Origin: Vulcanimicrobiota bacterium
Lineage (GTDB): Bacteria; Vulcanimicrobiota; Vulcanimicrobiia; Vulcanimicrobiales; Vulcanimicrobiaceae
NCBI GenBank assembly: GCA_027307235.1
Contig: DAHUXH010000010.1
Coordinates: 1-64,000, forward strand
DNA length: 64,000 nucleotides
Direction: 5' to 3'
Below are positions 22,342-30,046 of the stretch, piece by piece. Position numbers and translations under genes: made by a program. The notes beneath the pieces are model-generated. The model was not told the DNA's origin, did not search any database, and saw nothing but the letters and a program-made list of their open reading frames with translations. Every line of letters begins with the position of its first letter. Position 1 is the first letter of the stretch.

Positions 22342-22896
22342 ATGGCGGCGCCGCTGCTGACGCTTGGGCATGGGACTGCGAGTGTGGACGAACTTGCGGC
22401 TCTCCTTCGTGAAGCTGCGATCGAGTCGGTGGTTGACGTTCGCACGGTTCCCAAAAGCCGTCGTCATCCGCAATTTTGGCGCGAAGCGATGGAGCAGTGG
22501 GTCCCCGCGGAGGCCGCGAGTTCGTATCGCTGGGAACCGGCGCTCGGCGGCTTTCGCAAAGTCGATCCGAACAGCCATAACGTCGCGCTGCGCCATCCTT
22601 CGTTTCGCGCGTACGCCGACTACATGGAAACCGACGCCTTCGCGCGCGCCCTTGACCAGCTTCTCGCGCACGTGGAAACATCGCGCGTCGCGATTCTGTG
22701 TTCCGAAACGGTGTGGTGGCGGTGCCACCGGCGTCTCATCTCCGACGCCGTGCTGCTCCTGCACAAAATTCCGGTGCTTCACATGATGCACGACGGCGCG
22801 CTTCGTCCGCATATTCCGACGGCCGGCGTTCGCGTGGCCGACGACGGCACACTACGCTACGACGTCCTTTTTGAGCCTGACGAACCACCCGAATGA
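22342..22896 (+). CDS. DUF488 domain-containing protein
   Basis: A 184-residue cytoplasmic protein of the DUF488 family. Family hallmarks: LLTLGHGTASVDELAALL at the N-terminus, VVDVRTVPKSRRHPQF at ~30-45 and AILCSETVWWRCHRRLISD near residue 130, which holds the invariant Cys and the C-H-R cluster. No function is established for the family; it is often found near stress or DNA-related genes. Its last 45 bp overlap the end of the convergent MFS gene. Confidence 0.88.
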   Translation: MAAPLLTLGHGTASVDELAALLREAAIESVVDVRTVPKSRRHPQFWREAMEQWVPAEAASSYRWEPALGGFRKVDPNSHNVALRHPSFRAYADYMETDAFARALDQLLAHVETSRVAILCSETVWWRCHRRLISDAVLLLHKIPVLHMMHDGALRPHIPTAGVRVADDGTLRYDVLFEPDEPPE

Positions 22897-24111
22897 CAAC
22901 CGGGCGCTACGAGCTGCAACCAGCGGAAGCAACACCACCGACCCGAGCGCTGCTGCCGCGGAAAAGATGATGAACCCACCCATGTAACTGCCGGTGCGAT
23001 CGAAGATGGCGCCTCCGATAGCTGGCGCCGCCGCGGCCGCCAGTGCCAACGGAAGCCCCTGCGCTCCGTTCATACTGCCGAAGCGTTGCGGACCGAAGAC
23101 CGCCATCATCGCCGCCGCGCGCATCGCAGGCGACAATCCGTACCCGGCTCCGGACAGCAGTGCGGCACAGCCGACCGGAACGAGCGTATGCGCAGCCGCC
23201 ATCACGATGGTCGCCACAGCCTGCGCGAACGTACACGCGCACAGAATACTGAACGAATCAAAACGACGCAGCAAAGCGCCGCCGAACGCCCGACCGGGTA
23301 TGCTGCCGAAACCGCACAAACCCGCGATCATCGCCGCCGTTCCGGCATTCCATCCGCGCCCGAGTTCAAATGGGATGAAATGAACGGTGAGAAACGCGCT
23401 GCCCGCGACACTCAGCACGGCCGAGGTGGTAATGAGCAGAAATCGCACGTCGAGCAGCAGGCTCGGCATGCGTGCCGGCGCATTCGCTTCACGTGCGATG
23501 CTCGCGCGCGCTGGATAGCGCACCCAGAACGCATGGATGGGAACGGCGATCAGGAGTTGGATGAGCGCGATCGCAACCAAGGCATGGCGCCATCCCAGAT
23601 GCGCCACCAGCGATTGCTCGAGCGGTTGAAATACGGGCGCCGCCAAACCGCCGAAGAGCGTGATCGCCAACAACGCTTGCGCGGGGGCAGCTTTGAACCA
23701 TTGGCCTGCGATCGCAAACGACACCGGATAATACGTGAGCGCTGCGGCGCCGGCGAGTCCAATGCCCCAGATCGCATAGAATTGCGGCAGCGTCTGCACC
23801 ATCGACAGCAACCAAAAACTGATCGCCGCCAGCGCCGAACCTACTGTCAGCAGCAGCCGCCCGCGGCCGGCATCGACGTGACGCCCGACCACCATGCCGA
23901 GCGCGCCGGCTACCAACAAACACAACGAATAGGCGATCGACATGCGTCCACTCGCCCAATGCAGATCGCGGGCGATCGGCGTGAGCATCACGCCGAACAG
24001 ATACTGAATCGTGCCGAACGAGATGATGGTGGTTATCCCGAGCGGGAGAACCACCATCATAAACGAGGCGCGCGGCGCTACGCGCAACAAGCCGTCTCGG
24101 GCACTGAACAA
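22852..24111 (-). CDS. MFS transporter, candidate metalloid or organoarsenical exporter
   Basis: Major facilitator protein of 419 residues with about 12 membrane helices, including the MFS loop-2/3 signature MVVGRHVDAGRGRLLLTVG (~74-92). It starts 34 bp inside the end of the FAD oxidoreductase gene, so the two form an operon. That operon is headed by an ArsR-type palindrome shared with arsN and arsR. MFS exporters such as ArsJ and ArsK are known in arsenic resistance, but the sequence by itself does not set the substrate. Export of arsenite or an organic arsenical is inference from context. Confidence 0.8.
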   Translation of the reverse strand: MFSARDGLLRVAPRASFMMVVLPLGITTIISFGTIQYLFGVMLTPIARDLHWASGRMSIAYSLCLLVAGALGMVVGRHVDAGRGRLLLTVGSALAAISFWLLSMVQTLPQFYAIWGIGLAGAAALTYYPVSFAIAGQWFKAAPAQALLAITLFGGLAAPVFQPLEQSLVAHLGWRHALVAIALIQLLIAVPIHAFWVRYPARASIAREANAPARMPSLLLDVRFLLITTSAVLSVAGSAFLTVHFIPFELGRGWNAGTAAMIAGLCGFGSIPGRAFGGALLRRFDSFSILCACTFAQAVATIVMAAAHTLVPVGCAALLSGAGYGLSPAMRAAAMMAVFGPQRFGSMNGAQGLPLALAAAAAPAIGGAIFDRTGSYMGGFIIFSAAAALGSVVLLPLVAARSARLSFGWFVRLKKDVVA

Positions 24112-25409
24112 CTCTCCGTTTCAGATGGTGCGCAGCTCTGCGTATCGCAGCTGGAACGAGCGCGATCGGTGTTGCAGACGCCGGTCTCCGGAAGCACGAG
24201 TTCGACGCGTTCGGCCGCTTCGACATCGCCTGCGAGTTCGGCGATAATCGAACGAACTTGCTCGTAGCCGGTGAGCATGAGGAACGTCGGCGCGCGGCCG
24301 TAGCTCTTCATTCCGGCGATGTAGAAGCCGCGTTCCGGGTGACGGAGTTCACGCGCGCCGTGGGGCCGCACCGTGCCGCAACTGTGCTCGTTCGGATCGA
24401 TCAACGGCGCAAGTTCGACCGGTGCTTCGACCGCCGCGTCCAATGCGAGGCGCAGTTCGCGCAGCGGCGTCAGGTCGGGGCGAAAACCGGTGGACGCGAT
24501 AATCTCGTCGACGGGTAGCGTGCGATGATCTGCGCTTTCGAGCCACAGCCGCGTACCGAGTTGATTGACTTGCGCGATGCGGAACTTCTCGATGATTTCG
24601 ATGCGTTGGCGTGCGACCAGGTCGCGCAGACGCGCGCCGAGTTCGCCGCGCGCGGAGAGCGCGTCATTTTTTCCGCCTCCGAACATGATGTCCTCACGCG
24701 AACGCCGCACAACCCAGTACACCTTCGTGCCCGGCGCGTCGTCCGACAGCATCACCAGATCCAGAAGTGCGTTGAACGCGGAATGTCCGCTGCCGACGAC
24801 GGCGACCGACTTGTTGGCATACCGCTGGCGCAGCGTCAGCAAGACATCGGGAATTCCGTAGAAGATGCGCCCTTGCGCTTCAGGTTCACCCAGAGCGAAG
24901 ACGCCGGCTGATCCGAGCGGATTCGGCGTTTGCGCGGTGCCCGACGCGTCGATGACGGCGGACGCCAGCAGCGTCGAGCGCGATCCGTCCTTTGCTTCAA
25001 TCGTCAGTTCAAAGGGAAGCTGCTCGCGCCCGGCCGTCTTGAGCTTGTCGGCGCCGAAGCGCGAGACGGAGACGACGCGAGCGCCGAGGCGGATGTGAGG
25101 AAGCAACTCGGGGGTCTGGGCCAGCGGCCTCAAGTAGCGCTCGCAGAGTTCCTCGCCGGTCGGAAAGGCCTCGGGGTCGGGCTCGACCCAGCTGGTCCCG
25201 CTCAACAGCTCGTGGGCCTGCACGTCGATGTTGTAGCGCCACGGCGAAAAGAGCCTCACGTGTCCCCACGAGGCCACACTGGCCGCTACGCTGTCGCCCG
25301 ATTCGAGGACGACGAAGCCCTGGCCGCGAGCGCTGGCGTGCGCCGCGGCTGCCAGACCAACCGGACCGCCGCCGATGATTGCGATGGGAAAGCTACCTGG
25401 TGACTGCAT
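24078..25409 (-). CDS. FAD-dependent oxidoreductase with Cys-rich C-terminal tail (ArsO-like)
   Basis: Flavoprotein of 443 residues with two dinucleotide-binding folds: IIGGGPVGLAAAAHA (~11-25) for FAD and VAVVGSGHSAFNALL (~175-189) for NAD(P)H, as in flavin monooxygenase-like enzymes; DEIIASTGFRPDL is also typical. The last ~30 residues contain seven Cys, several in C-x4-C or CC spacing, which could bind a thiophilic metalloid. ATG 25409 is preferred (AGGGG 6 nt upstream); an ATG at 25433 inside the operator is an alternative, equivalent in position to that of arsR. ArsO-type flavoproteins occur in arsenic islands; the substrate here is unproven. Confidence 0.8.
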   Translation of the reverse strand: MQSPGSFPIAIIGGGPVGLAAAAHASARGQGFVVLESGDSVAASVASWGHVRLFSPWRYNIDVQAHELLSGTSWVEPDPEAFPTGEELCERYLRPLAQTPELLPHIRLGARVVSVSRFGADKLKTAGREQLPFELTIEAKDGSRSTLLASAVIDASGTAQTPNPLGSAGVFALGEPEAQGRIFYGIPDVLLTLRQRYANKSVAVVGSGHSAFNALLDLVMLSDDAPGTKVYWVVRRSREDIMFGGGKNDALSARGELGARLRDLVARQRIEIIEKFRIAQVNQLGTRLWLESADHRTLPVDEIIASTGFRPDLTPLRELRLALDAAVEAPVELAPLIDPNEHSCGTVRPHGARELRHPERGFYIAGMKSYGRAPTFLMLTGYEQVRSIIAELAGDVEAAERVELVLPETGVCNTDRARSSCDTQSCAPSETESCSVPETACCA

Positions 25410-25425
25410 GGAGGACCCCTTTTTA

Positions 25426-25441
25426 ATCGACATTCATCGAT
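25426..25441 (-). promoter_or_regulatory. ArsR-type operator O1 (FAD-MFS operon)
   Basis: Perfect palindrome ATCGA-CATTCA-TCGAT. On the minus strand the spacer contains an ATG (25433) followed by TCGAT, the same arrangement as at arsR. The aligned -10 position reads CTATAT; no good -35 is seen. Confidence 0.65.
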
Positions 25442-25490
25442 ATAGCGACGGCTGAGGTCCCCGTTTTGTTCTCGGGGGTCAGCCCAGTGC

Positions 25491-25506
25491 ATTGACAAAC
25501 ATCAAT
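25491..25506 (+). promoter_or_regulatory. ArsR-type operator O2 (arsN, upstream site)
   Basis: Perfect palindrome ATTGA-CAAACA-TCAAT that covers the -35 box of the arsN promoter. Its centre is 28 bp from that of O3. Confidence 0.7.
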
Positions 25507-25520
25507 ATAGAGCCTAGTAT
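25492..25520 (+). promoter_or_regulatory. arsN promoter
   Basis: TTGACA (25492-25497), 17 bp, TAGTAT (25515-25520): a near-consensus sigma-70 promoter. The predicted RNA start falls at about 25527, which is an ATG. Confidence 0.75.
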
Positions 25521-25534
25521 CGAAACATGTCAAT
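25519..25534 (+). promoter_or_regulatory. ArsR-type operator O3 (arsN, downstream site)
   Basis: ATCGA-AACATG-TCAAT, overlapping the -10 box and the expected transcription start; the spacer holds the ATG of the leader reading frame. One mismatch from a perfect palindrome. Confidence 0.7.
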
Positions 25535-25577
25535 ACAGAAGACGGTCTTTTTTCAGCCGAGGGAGGTGCTTCGATGA
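25527..25577 (+). CDS. Putative 16-codon leader peptide upstream of arsN
   Basis: A short frame, MSIQKTVFFQPREVLR, starts with the ATG at the predicted transcription start, so it would be leaderless, and its TGA overlaps the arsN ATG by 4 bp. Its first residues (MSIQK) resemble the start of ArsR (MSMQR), which also begins at its own promoter start. It is therefore probably a remnant of a copied arsR promoter and start. Translation of it could couple to arsN. Confidence 0.45.
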   Translation: MSIQKTVFFQPREVLR

Positions 25578-26098
25578 TCGCTTCAGCGCCGCGACAAGAT
25601 ACGCTCCTGTTTCGCGAAGCTCGGGTAGCCGATCTCGCCGCCATTCAACACATCTACAACGAGGGGATCGAGGACCGGATCGCTACGCTCGACACCGATC
25701 CGAAAGACGATAGCGAGATCGCCGGCTGGTTCGCGGACCACCGCGGACGCCATTGCGTGGTGCTTGCAGTTCGCGAGAACACGATCGTCGGCTGGGCGTC
25801 GTTGAACCGCTATTCGAATCGCTGTGCTTACGACGGGGTTGCGAGCCTCTCCATCTACATCGCACGCGAGCATCGCGGCACCGGAATCGGCAAGAAGCTT
25901 CTCGCCGAATTGGAGAAGCGCGCGATCGCGAACGACTTTCACAAGATCGTGCTCTTCACGTTCGCATTCAATCAACTCGGTCAGGGACTCTATCGCAGGG
26001 CCGGATACCGCGAAGTCGGCGTCTTTCGCAATCAAGGCCGGCTCGACGGAAAATTCGTCGACGTCATGGCCATGGAGAAGTTACTGGCGATCGAGTAG
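25574..26098 (+). CDS. arsN: GNAT N-acetyltransferase, ArsN1 family (arsinothricin resistance)
   Basis: GNAT acetyltransferase of 174 residues, closest in pattern to phosphinothricin/arsinothricin acetyltransferases: IQHIYNEGIEDRIATLDT (~21-38), WASLNRYSNRCAYDGVASLS, the acetyl-CoA loop REHRGTGIGKKLL (~97-109), FHKIVLFTFAFNQLGQGLYRRAGY and VGVFRNQGRLDGKFVDVMAM. ArsN1 proteins acetylate the amino group of arsinothricin, an organoarsenical antibiotic that mimics glutamate. SD GGGAGGTG lies 5-6 nt before the ATG. The dual ArsR-type operator upstream ties it to the arsenic regulon. Phosphinothricin-like substrates remain possible. Confidence 0.85.
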   Translation: MIASAPRQDTLLFREARVADLAAIQHIYNEGIEDRIATLDTDPKDDSEIAGWFADHRGRHCVVLAVRENTIVGWASLNRYSNRCAYDGVASLSIYIAREHRGTGIGKKLLAELEKRAIANDFHKIVLFTFAFNQLGQGLYRRAGYREVGVFRNQGRLDGKFVDVMAMEKLLAIE

Positions 26099-26106
26099 CC
26101 GGCCCG

Positions 26107-26529
26107 CTATTGCTGCGCGATGGCGTCGAGGACGCGGTGTAGGCGTGCGTTGACGTCGTCGGCGATGCCGAGCAGCGACGGATTGCCGACGACACCGAGC
26201 AACGGGCGCGCGTCGATGGCCGAGACGACCGTCGAGCCGTGTTCTTCTTGCACGACCACGTTGCACGGGAGCAGCAGTCCCAACTGCGACTCCTCGTTCA
26301 AGGCGCGATGCGCGAAGTGCGGATTGCACGCTCCGAGAATGCGATACGGCCGGAAATCAGCGCCGATCTTTTCATGCAGCGTCTTAGTGACGTCGATCTC
26401 GCAGAGAATTCCGAAGCCTTCGTCTTTGAGCAGCGATCTGGCGCGCTCGATAGCGGCTTCGAAGCCGAGCCCGGTGGCGACGCTGTAGCCGTATCCCACG
26501 GCCGCGGGTGCGTTGACCTTGTGTTCCAT
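26107..26529 (-). CDS. DUF302 domain-containing protein
   Basis: A 140-residue protein of the DUF302 family: YSVATGLGFEAAIERARSLL, KDEGFGILCEIDVTKTLHEK, YRILGACNPHFAHRALNEE and the GLLLPCNVVVQEE strand are all typical. The fold is known but the function is not; members occur near redox, sulfur and metal-handling genes. A conserved Cys lies in GACNPH and another in LPCNV. It is divergent from the multicopper oxidase gene, and the intergenic region holds the DtxR-type palindrome, so both could answer to the same metal regulator. Confidence 0.88.
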   Translation of the reverse strand: MEHKVNAPAAVGYGYSVATGLGFEAAIERARSLLKDEGFGILCEIDVTKTLHEKIGADFRPYRILGACNPHFAHRALNEESQLGLLLPCNVVVQEEHGSTVVSAIDARPLLGVVGNPSLLGIADDVNARLHRVLDAIAQQ

Positions 26530-26599
26530 ACGCCCATGCTACTCGCGATAGCGGCTGGTACACCAGGACCGGAAGGGTAAGGCTTGCCATGATGTGAAG

Positions 26600-26613
26600 T
26601 TAGGCAATCCTAA
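26600..26613. promoter_or_regulatory. DtxR/IdeR-type operator palindrome
   Basis: Perfect palindrome TTAGG-CAAT-CCTAA, the same half-sites and 4-bp spacing as the core of DtxR/IdeR boxes, which are bound by Fe(II)- or Mn(II)-loaded regulators. A -10-like TAAAAT (26611-26616) overlaps its right end. It lies between the DUF302 and multicopper oxidase-ZIP genes. Confidence 0.6.
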
Positions 26614-26639
26614 AATCTTTGAGCGAATCGAGGAAGCCG

Positions 26640-28523
26640 TTGCTCTCGCGCTGCCGAGCCCTTGCGTTGCCCCTCCTGGCCGCCGTCCTCGCCCTGGCGG
26701 CGCCGATCGGCGTTCACGCCGATGCCGACGAGCAGGCGGCAGCGGGAGCCAACACGGCAGCGCTCGGGCTGCAGCCGATTCGCGGACCCATCCCGGTCGC
26801 GACCCCGGCGCCGGGTGAATCGAAGGTCTTCCTCCGTCCGGACGGCGCCTACCAGGCCATCCCCGAGATACGCGGCCGGATGGAGATTTTCCATATCGTC
26901 CAGCGTCAAGCGCCGTGGACGATCAAGCCCGGCCTCACCGTGATGGCGAATACCTACAACGGCGTCGTGCCCGGGCCGGTGATCGCCGCCAAGCAAGGCG
27001 ACACCGTCGTTATCGACTACGCGAACGACACCTCGACACCCGACTCGATTCATCTGCACGGCATCCACGACATTCCGGTCTCGATGGACGGCGTCGCGGG
27101 CATCTCGCAGCCGCTCGTGCAGCAAGGCGAACACTTCCGCTATCACTTCGTCGCCGAAGAACCCGGAACGTTCATCTATCACACACACGGCAACGAAGCG
27201 CATCTCAATTCGGGATTGTACGGCGCGATTGTCGTTCAACCGGCGCACCCGCTGCCGGCCGAGCAGAACCTCGCGCACGATTTCGTCGAGGTGGTCTCGT
27301 CGTGGCAGATTCAAAGCGCGGCCGAGAACGAATTCAGCCTGAACGGCAAGTCCTATCCGGGAACGAAGGCGCTCGACGTGAAGCCCGGCGAGCGCTTCCG
27401 CATTCGCTGGATCAATATCTCGGGTGAAAATTTTCACACCATGCACACGCATGGGCACTATCAGCTCATCATCGATCGCGACGCGCAGCCGGTGGCAGTG
27501 CGCGACCTCGAAGACACGGTGTTGATCGGTCCGGGACAACGCGCGGACGTGGTCGTCACGGCCAATGCGAAACCGGGAACCTGGCTCATCCATTGCCATG
27601 TCGCCGATCACACCGAAGACGCGAACGGCATGCCCGACGGATTGATCACCGCAATCCACTACACGGGCACGCCCAACATGCTGCTTGCGATGAACGCGGC
27701 GATGACCTCGCAGATGAACATGCCGCCGCCCACGCATCAGCCGCTCAGCTTCTCGATGACCGTTCTGCTCGGCGCGATCGCGGGTTTCACGATCTTCTTC
27801 GGCTTACCGATCGCGCGCATGCGCAAGGTATCGCACGAAACGATCGCATTGCTCAATGCGCTGGCGATCGGGATCTTGATCTACCTCGTGATCGAGATCG
27901 CGCAGAACGCGATCTTCCCAATCACGACCGGAATCATCGCGTGGCATACGAGCGGCGGTGCGTTTCCGCTCGCGCTGCTCATCGTCTTCGTCGGCGGATT
28001 GCTGATCGGGTTAGTAGGTTTGGGCAGCCTTGCGACGCAGATGACCAAACGCGCCGCGCAGAGCGCAGAAAATCCGATGATGCTCGCGGCGATCATCGCC
28101 ATCGGCATCGGCGCGCACAACTTCGGTGAAGGTCTGGCGATCGGCGCATCGGCCGCCTCGGGCGCGACTGCCGTTGCGATCGGACTCATCATCGGTTTCG
28201 GGTTGCACAACGCGACCGAAGGCTTCGGCGTTGCGGCGCCGCTCATCGGGCGCGTCGTTCCGACGTGGGTCCAACTCGGCATCGCGGGCTTGATCGCCGG
28301 CGGCCCGACCTTCCTTGGAACGATCATCGGGTATCAATTCCAATCGCCGACGCTCTCCGTGCTCTTCCTCGCGATCGCGATCGGCGCGCTGGTCTTCGTG
28401 ATCGGCGAACTTTGGTCGGTCCTGCGGCGTACGGGGCTCAGCGCGCTGGTCACGACGATGATGACGGTCGGCTTCCTGGTGGCCTTCGGCACCGAACTCT
28501 TCCTCGACGTCAACGGCGGGTAA
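26640..28523 (+). CDS. Multicopper oxidase fused to a ZIP metal transporter
   Basis: One chain of 627 residues with two parts. After a signal peptide (~1-28) comes a two-domain multicopper oxidase: type 2/3 copper ligands in HLHG (138-141), HTH (181-183), HTMHTHGH (266-273) and HCH (318-320), and a type 1 site only in domain 2 (C319, H324, M331). Residues ~370-627 are a ZIP-family permease with about eight helices and the two metal-binding motifs HNFGEG (493-498) and HNATEG (523-528). The oxidase would face the periplasm. A metal such as Fe or Mn may be oxidised where it is carried, as with yeast Fet3-Ftr1; this is inference. Start TTG 26640 follows GAGGAAG; TTG 26619 is an alternative. Confidence 0.87.
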   Translation: MLSRCRALALPLLAAVLALAAPIGVHADADEQAAAGANTAALGLQPIRGPIPVATPAPGESKVFLRPDGAYQAIPEIRGRMEIFHIVQRQAPWTIKPGLTVMANTYNGVVPGPVIAAKQGDTVVIDYANDTSTPDSIHLHGIHDIPVSMDGVAGISQPLVQQGEHFRYHFVAEEPGTFIYHTHGNEAHLNSGLYGAIVVQPAHPLPAEQNLAHDFVEVVSSWQIQSAAENEFSLNGKSYPGTKALDVKPGERFRIRWINISGENFHTMHTHGHYQLIIDRDAQPVAVRDLEDTVLIGPGQRADVVVTANAKPGTWLIHCHVADHTEDANGMPDGLITAIHYTGTPNMLLAMNAAMTSQMNMPPPTHQPLSFSMTVLLGAIAGFTIFFGLPIARMRKVSHETIALLNALAIGILIYLVIEIAQNAIFPITTGIIAWHTSGGAFPLALLIVFVGGLLIGLVGLGSLATQMTKRAAQSAENPMMLAAIIAIGIGAHNFGEGLAIGASAASGATAVAIGLIIGFGLHNATEGFGVAAPLIGRVVPTWVQLGIAGLIAGGPTFLGTIIGYQFQSPTLSVLFLAIAIGALVFVIGELWSVLRRTGLSALVTTMMTVGFLVAFGTELFLDVNGG

Positions 28524-28542
28524 GCGCCCGGCGGCTGTGGTT

Positions 28543-28558
28543 ATTGACATTCTTCGAT
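28543..28558 (+). promoter_or_regulatory. ArsR-type operator O4 (arsR, upstream site)
   Basis: ATTGA-CATTCT-TCGAT over the -35 box of the arsR promoter; one mismatch from a perfect palindrome. Its centre is 28 bp from that of O5, exactly as for O2 and O3. Confidence 0.7.
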
Positions 28559-28572
28559 ATACGCCATAGCAT
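28544..28572 (+). promoter_or_regulatory. arsR-arsC-aqpS promoter
   Basis: TTGACA (28544-28549), 17 bp, TAGCAT (28567-28572). The RNA should start near 28579, at the arsR ATG, giving a leaderless mRNA. Confidence 0.75.
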
Positions 28573-28586
28573 CGAATCATGTCGAT
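28571..28586 (+). promoter_or_regulatory. ArsR-type operator O5 (arsR, downstream site)
   Basis: Perfect palindrome ATCGA-ATCATG-TCGAT, extended to CATCGA/TCGATG; the arsR start codon is inside the spacer. Confidence 0.75.
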
Positions 28587-28911
28587 GCAGCGCGTATGTT
28601 TGTCACCCGAGTCGCTCAAGGGCGATTTCGAACCGATGGTCGGCCTTTTCAAGGCCCTGGCCGATCCCCACCGTCTCGCGATTCTTTCGGCGCTGGCCCG
28701 TGAGGACGGCGAGGTGTGCGTCTGCGATTTCACCGCCGGATTGCCGCTCAATCAACCGACCGTTTCGCACCACCTGAAGATCTTGCGCGACTGCGGGCTC
28801 GTGACGAGCGAACGGCGCGGCACGTGGGTCTACTACCAGCTTGCACCCGACGCGCGGCAACGCTTGGCCGACGCCCTCGACGCCGTCGTCCCGCTCGGCG
28901 TCCTGGCGTGA
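28579..28911 (+). CDS. arsR: ArsR-family arsenite-responsive repressor
   Basis: Winged-helix repressor of 110 residues, released from DNA by As(III)/Sb(III). Residues 44-52 carry EVCVCDFTA, the classical ELCVCDL-type metalloid site with C47 and C49; C72 (RDCGLV) may be the third ligand. The recognition helix is in NQPTVSHHLKILRDCGLV. The ATG at 28579 lies in operator O5 at the expected transcription start; a second ATG two codons later is possible. It begins the arsR-arsC-aqpS operon and its stop overlaps the arsC start by 4 bp. It is the likely regulator of the arsN and FAD-MFS units too. Confidence 0.95.
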   Translation: MSMQRVCLSPESLKGDFEPMVGLFKALADPHRLAILSALAREDGEVCVCDFTAGLPLNQPTVSHHLKILRDCGLVTSERRGTWVYYQLAPDARQRLADALDAVVPLGVLA

Positions 28912-29354
28912 CGTCCAGGCCCAACGTTCTCTTCGTCTGCGTGCACAATAGCGCACGCAGTCAGATGGCTGAGGCGCTGTTGCGGCAGGTAGCGGGCGAC
29001 GCCGCCAATGCATACAGCGCCGGGCTCGAAGCAGGTGCGCTCAATCCGTACGTCGTTACCGCGATGCGCGAAATCGGCATCGACATCTCGCAGCAGCACG
29101 CCAAGACCGTCAACGATCCGCAGATCGCCGGACGCGCATACGACTACGTGATCAGCGTGTGCGATGAGGCGAGCGGCGCCGCATGCCCGGTCGTTCCGAC
29201 GACCGGCCAACGCCTCTCCTGGCAGTTTCCCGATCCTTCGCGGTTCGCAGGCAGCGACGAGGAAAAACTCGCGATGGTGCGCGCCGTGCGCGACTCGCTC
29301 AAAGAACGGATCGCGCACTGGGCGGCCGTGACGTTCGCACCGCAGAACCGATGA
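28908..29354 (+). CDS. arsC: Arsenate reductase (low-Mr phosphatase type, thioredoxin-coupled)
   Basis: Reduces arsenate to arsenite in the cytoplasm. The 148-residue protein has the P-loop CVHNSARS at 11-18 with the nucleophile C11, and a downstream pair C85 and C93 (SVCDEASGAACP), which matches the three-Cys relay of thioredoxin-dependent ArsC such as that of plasmid pI258. FPDPS near 108-112 holds the acid residue. The GTG start overlaps the arsR stop (GTGA), and the stop overlaps the aqpS ATG by 4 bp. Confidence 0.95.
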   Translation: MTSRPNVLFVCVHNSARSQMAEALLRQVAGDAANAYSAGLEAGALNPYVVTAMREIGIDISQQHAKTVNDPQIAGRAYDYVISVCDEASGAACPVVPTTGQRLSWQFPDPSRFAGSDEEKLAMVRAVRDSLKERIAHWAAVTFAPQNR

Positions 29355-30046
29355 ACACGAAGCTCAACCGTCGTCTCGTCTGCGAAGGGGTGGGCACCGC
29401 GCTGCTCGTGGCCGGTGTGATCGGCTCGGGCATCATGGCGCAACGGCTATCGGGCGGAAACGTCGCGCTCGCGCTGCTCGCCAACACGATCGCGACCGGC
29501 GGTATCCTCGTCGCGATCATCGCCGCCTTCGGTCCCATCTCCGGCGCGCATTTCAATCCGGCCGTGTCCCTGTCCGAAGCCTGGAACGGCGCCGTGTCGT
29601 GGCGCGAAGCAGCGTGGTACACGCTCGTTCAGATCGCGGGCGCGATAGCAGGCGCGATGATCGCCAACGTCATGTTCGGCCTTGCGCCCGTGGCGCTGTC
29701 TCACCACGCGCGTCATGGCGCCGGGCTGCTGCTCGGTGAAGCAGTGGCGACGTTCGGTTTGCTCTGCGTCATCCGCGGCTGCGCGCTCACGCGCGTCTGG
29801 ATGATGCCGTTCGCGGTTGCCGCCTACATCGTCGGCGCGTATTGGTTCACGTCGTCGACGTCGTTCGCCAATCCGGCGGTCGCGATCGGCCGCTCGCTCA
29901 CCGACACCTTCGCGGGGATCGCACCGAACGATGTGCCCGGGTTCGTGATCGCGCAGCTCGCCGGCGCCGCCGCGGCCACAGCACTGTTTGGTTGGTTGGC
30001 TCCGCCGGTGGCGACCGCGAGCTCACCAGCCGAAGAAGCAGGGTAA
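29351..30046 (+). CDS. aqpS: Aquaglyceroporin-type channel (AqpS-like)
   Basis: MIP-family channel of 231 residues with six helices and both pore NPA motifs: GAHFNPAVSL (69-71) and SSFANPAVAIGRS (174-176). The Arg after the second motif, part of the selectivity filter, is present. In Sinorhizobium, AqpS sits in an ars operon and lets arsenite made by ArsC flow out; the same gene order arsR, arsC and a channel here supports that role. No ArsB or Acr3 pump is seen in the window, so this channel and the MFS protein may be the exit routes. Confidence 0.9.
   Translation: MNTKLNRRLVCEGVGTALLVAGVIGSGIMAQRLSGGNVALALLANTIATGGILVAIIAAFGPISGAHFNPAVSLSEAWNGAVSWREAAWYTLVQIAGAIAGAMIANVMFGLAPVALSHHARHGAGLLLGEAVATFGLLCVIRGCALTRVWMMPFAVAAYIVGAYWFTSSTSFANPAVAIGRSLTDTFAGIAPNDVPGFVIAQLAGAAAATALFGWLAPPVATASSPAEEAG

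Follow-up and report, generated by a model that had tools for sequence, protein, structure and literature searches.

A single-chain multicopper oxidase–ZIP permease of Eremiobacterota lies behind a putative DtxR-family operator

Within the 64-kb stretch of DNA analysed here (the window), one open frame on the forward strand, 26619–28523, encodes a multicopper oxidase (MCO) joined to a ZIP permease. An earlier note on this DNA had begun the frame at 26640 and counted 627 residues; the frame is indeed open, but an earlier in-frame start, the TTG at 26619, gives a product of 634 residues, with the stop codon ending at 28523. The note's central observation, an oxidase followed by a permease in a single frame, is borne out by Pfam matches to both parts and by some 65 full-length homologues. 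As read from the sequence, the protein appears to consist, in order, of a signal peptide, a two-domain MCO, a linker rich in methionine and a ZIP permease of eight helices. The putative signal peptide (residues 1–34; 26619–26720) comprises a hydrophobic stretch at residues 14–32 and an AxA-like site, with cleavage predicted after VHA. Five nucleotides before the start codon stands the palindrome TTAGGCAATCCTAA (26600–26613), a putative operator of the DtxR family. An AF2 model built from two sequences reached a pLDDT of 36 and was left out of all readings.

An arsenic-type gene group surrounds the fused gene (22852–30046). On the reverse strand lie genes for an ArsK-like MFS protein (22852–24111) and an ArsO-like flavoprotein (24078–25433); on the forward strand, arsN1a, for an ArsN1a acetyltransferase (25574–26098), lies upstream, and arsR (28579–28911) begins 55 nt past the end of the fused gene, followed by an ArsC-like gene (within 28716–29354) and one for an aquaporin-like MIP channel (29183–30046). 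We considered and rejected the fused gene as part of this ars group: no neighbour family occurs in more than 7 of 40 fused-gene neighbourhoods, so the arsenic company is taken as incidental. The sole neighbour that recurs at a fixed place is the DtxR-family regulator of one family, f3, discussed below.

The oxidase is built from two cupredoxin domains. Domain 1 (residues 100–209; 26916–27245) matches Cu-oxidase_3 (PF07732, E = 3e-28) and contributes H145xH147 and H188xH190, with no T1 cysteine; domain 2 (residues 235–333; 27321–27617) matches Cu-oxidase_2 (PF07731, E = 1e-24) and carries HTMHTHGH together with the T1 motif HCHVADH (residues 325–331; 27591–27611). Alignment confines the T1 cysteine and histidine to this motif, domain 1 having YHTH instead, and the fused oxidase accordingly reads as a two-domain MCO of type B, with its T1 copper predicted in domain 2 (types B and C as defined in PMC13151041). 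In 50 fused homologues, the four HxH motifs of the trinuclear site (H145/H147, H188/H190, H276/H278 and H325/H327) are invariant. The copper ligands, previously described as complete, are so for eleven residues, ten histidines and one cysteine, that are at least 98% invariant in the same set (H145, H147, H188, H190, H273, H276, H278, H325, C326, H327 and H331), but not for the T1 axial M338, which is kept in 74% of homologues and is otherwise G, H or L, in a loop two residues longer than the canonical one.

Between oxidase and permease, the linker (residues 353–377; 27675–27749) is rich in methionine across the 50 homologues (13.8%, compared with 2.7% for the oxidase and 1.8% for the permease), M358 being conserved in 92% and M362 in 88%. 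Hydropathy predicts eight transmembrane (TM) helices in the permease (residues 380–624; 27756–28490), with both termini outside. The subfamily alignment places its metal motifs in TM4 (HNFGEG, residues 500–505; 28116–28133) and TM5 (HNATEG, residues 530–535; 28206–28223), and the six residues of these motifs (H500, N501, E504, H530, N531 and E534) each reach at least 98% invariance across the 50 fused homologues. The Pfam Zip match spans residues 481–592 (E = 4e-7) and, at 30.1 bits, falls below the curated cut-off of 35.1, which a few homologues do exceed; the NCBIfam ZupT profile covers residues 379–591, which shows the ZIP part to be whole, though divergent. Searched by itself against the PDB, the ZIP part gave no match. 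The permease had been called complete with both metal-binding motifs: those of TM4 and TM5 are kept, but the TM6 glutamate of ZupT (AE motif) is replaced by GGP, a change common to the whole MCO-associated clade described below, so that the second ZIP metal site is incomplete in the ZupT sense. That position varies in many ZIPs, and GGP there does not exclude membership of the family. Lysine and arginine are enriched in ZIP loops 1, 3 and 7, whereas loops 2, 6 and 8 have few of them; taking the enriched loops as the inner ones would place both the oxidase and the C terminus on the outer side, in line with the usual ZIP topology, in which both termini are external. An outside-facing oxidase would fit a protein exported by a signal peptide.

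The fusion is conserved within one class of its phylum, which a named relative identifies as Candidatus Eremiobacterota. A six-frame search of 149 Eremiobacterota genomes found matches over both domains in about 65, which rules out a chance read-through or an assembly artefact; the homologues are 45–74% identical and fall into three families (f1, f2 and f3) of one class. In nearly all fusion-bearing genomes, the fused protein is the sole Zip-family protein found. Relatives in viral contigs were sought and none was found. Two of the roughly 65 genomes have an in-frame stop, a single one in each copy (G046, locus L023; G124, locus L131), and two further copies have a frame break, inside the MCO (G120:C22, L130) or inside the ZIP (G127:C97, L132); all four may be pseudogenes or sequencing errors.

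We next turn to the palindrome, TTAGGN4CCTAA, whose presence before the fused gene and recurrence before its homologues are new here. The copy at 26600–26613 is the only exact or one-mismatch occurrence in the window, and one of just two exact copies in the organism's own 2.41-Mb genome. Allowing up to one mismatch, the palindrome stands just before the fused gene at 41 of 50 loci, against 0.16 expected from shuffles, an expectation that overstates independence because the loci are related by descent; in fused homologues it often ends one base before the ATG. Of 12 more genomes searched, 11 carry the fusion, each with an exact palindrome before it. With one mismatch allowed, the own genome yields 7 operator sites against 34 for a reversed control; the regulon was therefore drawn from exact sites alone.

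In family f3 the palindrome leads to a candidate regulator. There a DtxR-family gene lies directly upstream of the fused gene at 13 loci that were read, and at a fourteenth by coordinates, and the palindrome (at most one mismatch) stands before dtxR at 13 of 13. The regulator has the domains Fe_dep_repress, Fe_dep_repr_C and FeoA; its metal-site motif, EMYLK...EACR[LI]EH, is of the IdeR/DtxR kind, and its best PDB match is IdeR. MntR, by comparison, has Asp8 and Glu99 at two corresponding positions (PMC6860424). In one f1 genome (G078) the regulator gene lies directly downstream of the fused gene, and the genome analysed here has a DtxR of its own, on contig C10. From its position before dtxR in the f3 operons, we infer that the palindrome serves a DtxR-family regulator of iron/manganese as operator, and the fused gene thus looks as if it were controlled by an iron- or manganese-sensing site. 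Two genomes, including the fusion-free G065, have the palindrome before Nramp as well, and it stands beside genes for a HiPIP-like protein and for a TonB-dependent receptor; several further copies precede genes with no evident metal link, and others a family of secreted CxxCH proteins. These last, of about 360 residues and directly behind the palindrome (L167:2145–3224 on G000:C17, L168–L172 and L176), match no Pfam or NCBIfam family and would be a second target, likewise conserved, of the putative DtxR regulon; speculatively, they recall a Cyc2-like cytochrome–porin arrangement.

Outside the phylum, the survey covered plasmids, a scan of genome contigs with a single query having given one relative. 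The plasmid relatives occur as two adjoining genes, MCO then ZIP. By annotation, such operons extend to Deinococcota, Bacillota, Actinomycetota, Cyanobacteriota, Alphaproteobacteria and haloarchaea, the plasmid hosts including Deinococcus, Cytobacillus, Peribacillus, Sutcliffiella, Rubrobacter, Nocardia, Rhodococcus, Arthrobacter, cyanobacteria, Shinella, Sulfitobacter, Pelagibacterium and haloarchaea. The MCO gene lies directly upstream of the ZIP gene, on the same strand, in all 45 plasmids cross-checked between two listings, and the genes of many pairs overlap by 4 nt. A plasmid of Deinococcus sp. KNUC1210 holds the reverse fusion, ZIP–MCO, in one gene encoding 603 residues (L033:5944–7755), unique among the plasmids searched. 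Taken together, the roughly 65 full-length fusions, the operons in other phyla and the reverse fusion show the linkage of oxidase and permease to be real, and make it very likely functional.

Phylogeny places the ZIPs of the fusions, the reverse fusion and the operons in one clade apart from canonical ZIPs (support 100/99), with HN(F/L)xEGLAIG, GFxLHNxTEG, and GGP or GAP at the position of the ZupT TM6 glutamate as common motifs. Within it, the operon ZIPs form one group, and the fused ZIPs fall together with the reverse fusion and two stand-alone ZIPs of Mycolicibacterium plasmids (L084:4001–4819 and L085:3983–4840), which have no MCO nearby. The oxidases divide differently: the T1 cysteine lies in domain 2 (type B) in fused and reverse-fused proteins and in domain 1 (type C) in those of the operons, and the oxidase tree separates the two sets (support 100/100). 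That a single ZIP subfamily keeps company with two classes of two-domain MCO speaks for a tie in function, not for descent alone. The operon ZIPs are also longer, with one more helix at the N terminus and some 110 residues of extracytoplasmic domain that the fused ZIP lacks; this domain (L034:6861–8054 and other split ZIPs) could dock the separate oxidase.

Regulators of this kind recur beside the operons, a DtxR/MntR-family gene adjoining them in Deinococcus (two cases), Rubrobacter, Arthrobacter, Haloprofundus, Shinella and Sulfitobacter. Those aligned, from Deinococcus and Rubrobacter, are of the manganese type; the closest solved relative of the regulator from Deinococcus D7000 is 8pvt, annotated as an iron-dependent repressor, and the DtxR homologue DR2539 of Deinococcus radiodurans responds to both manganese and iron (PMC3327659). 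An exact copy of the palindrome precedes the split operon of Deinococcus QL22; Deinococcus excepted, the sites before most other split operons gave nothing above chance. The split operons often lie among heavy-metal resistance genes.

Which metal the fused protein handles is suggested chiefly by this regulatory setting: the DtxR-type operator and the co-encoded regulator make movement of iron or manganese the most likely. None of the phylum's 149 genomes that were searched has FTR1, Pfam finds no FTR1 domain in the fused protein, and FeoB is absent from all 41 genomes examined. Nramp, by contrast, has two matches in the own genome, so the fused protein is not the sole candidate importer; among the FTR1, FeoB, Nramp and ZIP families, Nramp and the fused protein are the candidate inner-membrane routes for free iron and manganese. 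The fused protein probably helps the uptake of iron or manganese in organisms that do without the usual iron permeases.

Our preferred reading, held with moderate confidence, is that the protein serves as a single-chain oxidase–permease for acquiring iron or, less likely, manganese. When short of metal, the DtxR-family metalloregulator would leave the palindrome and the fused protein would be made; the signal peptide would export the oxidase, and the Met-rich linker would then hold it at the outer end of the first helix of a ZIP in the cytoplasmic membrane. The T1 copper would take electrons from the metal (Fe(II) as first choice, with Mn(II) or Cu(I) possible), O2 would be reduced at the trinuclear site, and the ZIP domain would carry metal ions through the membrane, so that oxidation and transport would occur at one place. 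The earlier note had likened such a linkage to Fet3–Ftr1. The conserved association and the DtxR-type operator and regulator agree with oxidation linked to metal movement; the analogy of handing over Fe(III) fares less well, as there is no FTR1 domain and ZIPs are normally divalent carriers.

Two puzzles attend this preferred reading. The usual cargo of ZIPs is divalent, and oxidation of Fe(II) ahead of one seems counter-productive, unless this ZIP is out of the ordinary. Solved ZIPs, moreover, are dimers. Two-domain oxidases of type B function as trimers (PMC13151041), and this mismatch counts against the reading, as do the presence of Nramp, the frequent proximity of split operons to heavy-metal resistance genes and the palindromes before genes with no evident metal link. 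The oxidase could aid the ZIP in several ways: the permease, with its altered TM6, might accept the oxidised ion directly; oxidation might trap metal moved outward; or removal of Fe(II) might favour Mn(II). A larger proposal, which we regard as doubtful, is that these proteins constitute a second, independently evolved oxidase–permease machine for iron uptake, in which a ZIP subfamily stands in Ftr1's place, encoded by two genes in many phyla, fused at least twice (MCO–ZIP in Eremiobacterota, ZIP–MCO in Deinococcus) and perhaps taking the oxidised ion directly; it would be a main DtxR-controlled entry for iron or manganese in a class without FeoB or FTR1.

Other metals and directions can be set against acquisition of iron or manganese. 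The oxidase might convert Cu(I) to Cu(II) for import through the ZIP, as has been proposed for ammonia-oxidising archaea; the Met-rich linker and the oxidase's own need for copper are in keeping with copper uptake, and in Nitrososphaera viennensis the MCO1 gene and the one ZIP gene beside it are modestly up under copper limitation (PMC7785015). We judge this unlikely here, given that the operator, the co-encoded regulator and the other targets all indicate a DtxR-type iron/manganese regulon and that, with at most 7 of 40 neighbourhoods containing any one family, nothing except the f3 DtxR gene recurs at a fixed place.

Rather than acquiring metal, the protein might dispose of it, the ZIP releasing Fe(II) or Mn(II), or competing at the surface for it, while the oxidase would turn it into insoluble oxide outside, much as ferroportin works with hephaestin. 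Such oxidative trapping would be chemically tidy, given the divalent cargo of ZIPs and the ferroxidase and manganoxidase activities known for MCOs; the split operons do lie within metal-resistance islands, and MntR can activate efflux genes (PMC11275975). Yet the operator is common to Nramp importers, the membrane potential would drive a divalent facilitator inward, and DtxR-type regulators mostly repress uptake; we find trapping distinctly improbable. We give still less credence to a device for selectivity, in which the oxidase would clear Fe(II) from the mouth of a broad-range ZIP and thereby favour Mn(II) or Zn(II): it would dispense with Fe(III) transport, suits the broad range of ZIPs and accords with the manganese-type MntR beside split operons, but the site is of the iron type in the regulator associated with the fused genes.

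The fused protein can be placed among several known systems. Yeast Fet3p–Ftr1p likewise pairs an extracytoplasmic MCO with a membrane permease under metal starvation, but here the permease is a ZIP, the Ftr1 family is absent, the oxidase has two domains rather than three, and both share one chain. In bacterial FtrABCD and EfeUOB, Fe(II) is oxidised before the permease by a cupredoxin or peroxidase partner; the idea is shared, whereas their permease is of the FTR1 type, of which the 149 genomes hold none. From ZupT and BbZIP, which it resembles in its eight helices and its TM4 and TM5 metal motifs, the fused ZIP differs in having HNxGEG for HNxPEG and GGP for the TM6 glutamate motif, and in scoring below the Pfam cut-off. 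The split operons share the ZIP clade, an MCO directly upstream and often an adjacent MntR/DtxR gene, and differ in their type C oxidase and in the additional helix and domain of their ZIP. SLAC and CjMCO, also of type B (PMC13151041), have the same ligand pattern with T1 copper in domain 2, but are soluble secreted laccases, whereas the oxidase here is predicted to be tethered to the membrane. In ammonia-oxidising archaea MCO1 adjoins a ZIP gene (PMC7785015, PMC5767755, PMC7819960), and copper uptake and an analogy to Fet3p have been proposed for the pair (PMC7785015). The archaeal pair (NVIE_000600/NVIE_000590), too, has a two-domain MCO with T1–T3 copper next to a ZIP permease, though as two genes and with copper as the proposed cargo; the likeness is one of description. 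The earlier note knew of no characterised protein of this build. Our search of the open-access literature found no account of the fused protein, of bacterial MCO–ZIP operons as a system or of the DtxR/MntR link, which is not proof of absence, and the adjacent archaeal MCO1 and ZIP genes do constitute a published precedent.

In the textbook view, ZIPs are divalent carriers without redox partners, and ferroxidase-coupled uptake belongs to Ftr1-type permeases. A ZIP subfamily that travels with MCOs in bacteria and archaea, in operons and in both orders of fusion, with DtxR/MntR genes beside it, indicates that oxidation and ZIP transport go together somewhere in metal physiology, and would suggest a route for iron in a little-studied phylum that has neither FeoB nor FTR1. 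The single chain makes their coupling testable in one gene, and the fusion bears on the unexplained MCO1–ZIP pair of ammonia-oxidising archaea.

Finally, the plasmids held other arrangements around such oxidases. In three from Bacillaceae (L035, L080 and L083), a tatA-like gene lies directly or closely behind the MCO–ZIP pair, as if a dedicated Tat component exported the oxidase; the corresponding position is occupied by a gene for a Rieske protein in Rhodococcus and Nocardia and for a plastocyanin in haloarchaea. A plasmid of Mesorhizobium sp. NBSH29 encodes another oxidase–membrane fusion, an MCO joined in one gene to a DUF4396 membrane domain (L137:1906–3864), adjoining cueR and a cytochrome c gene.
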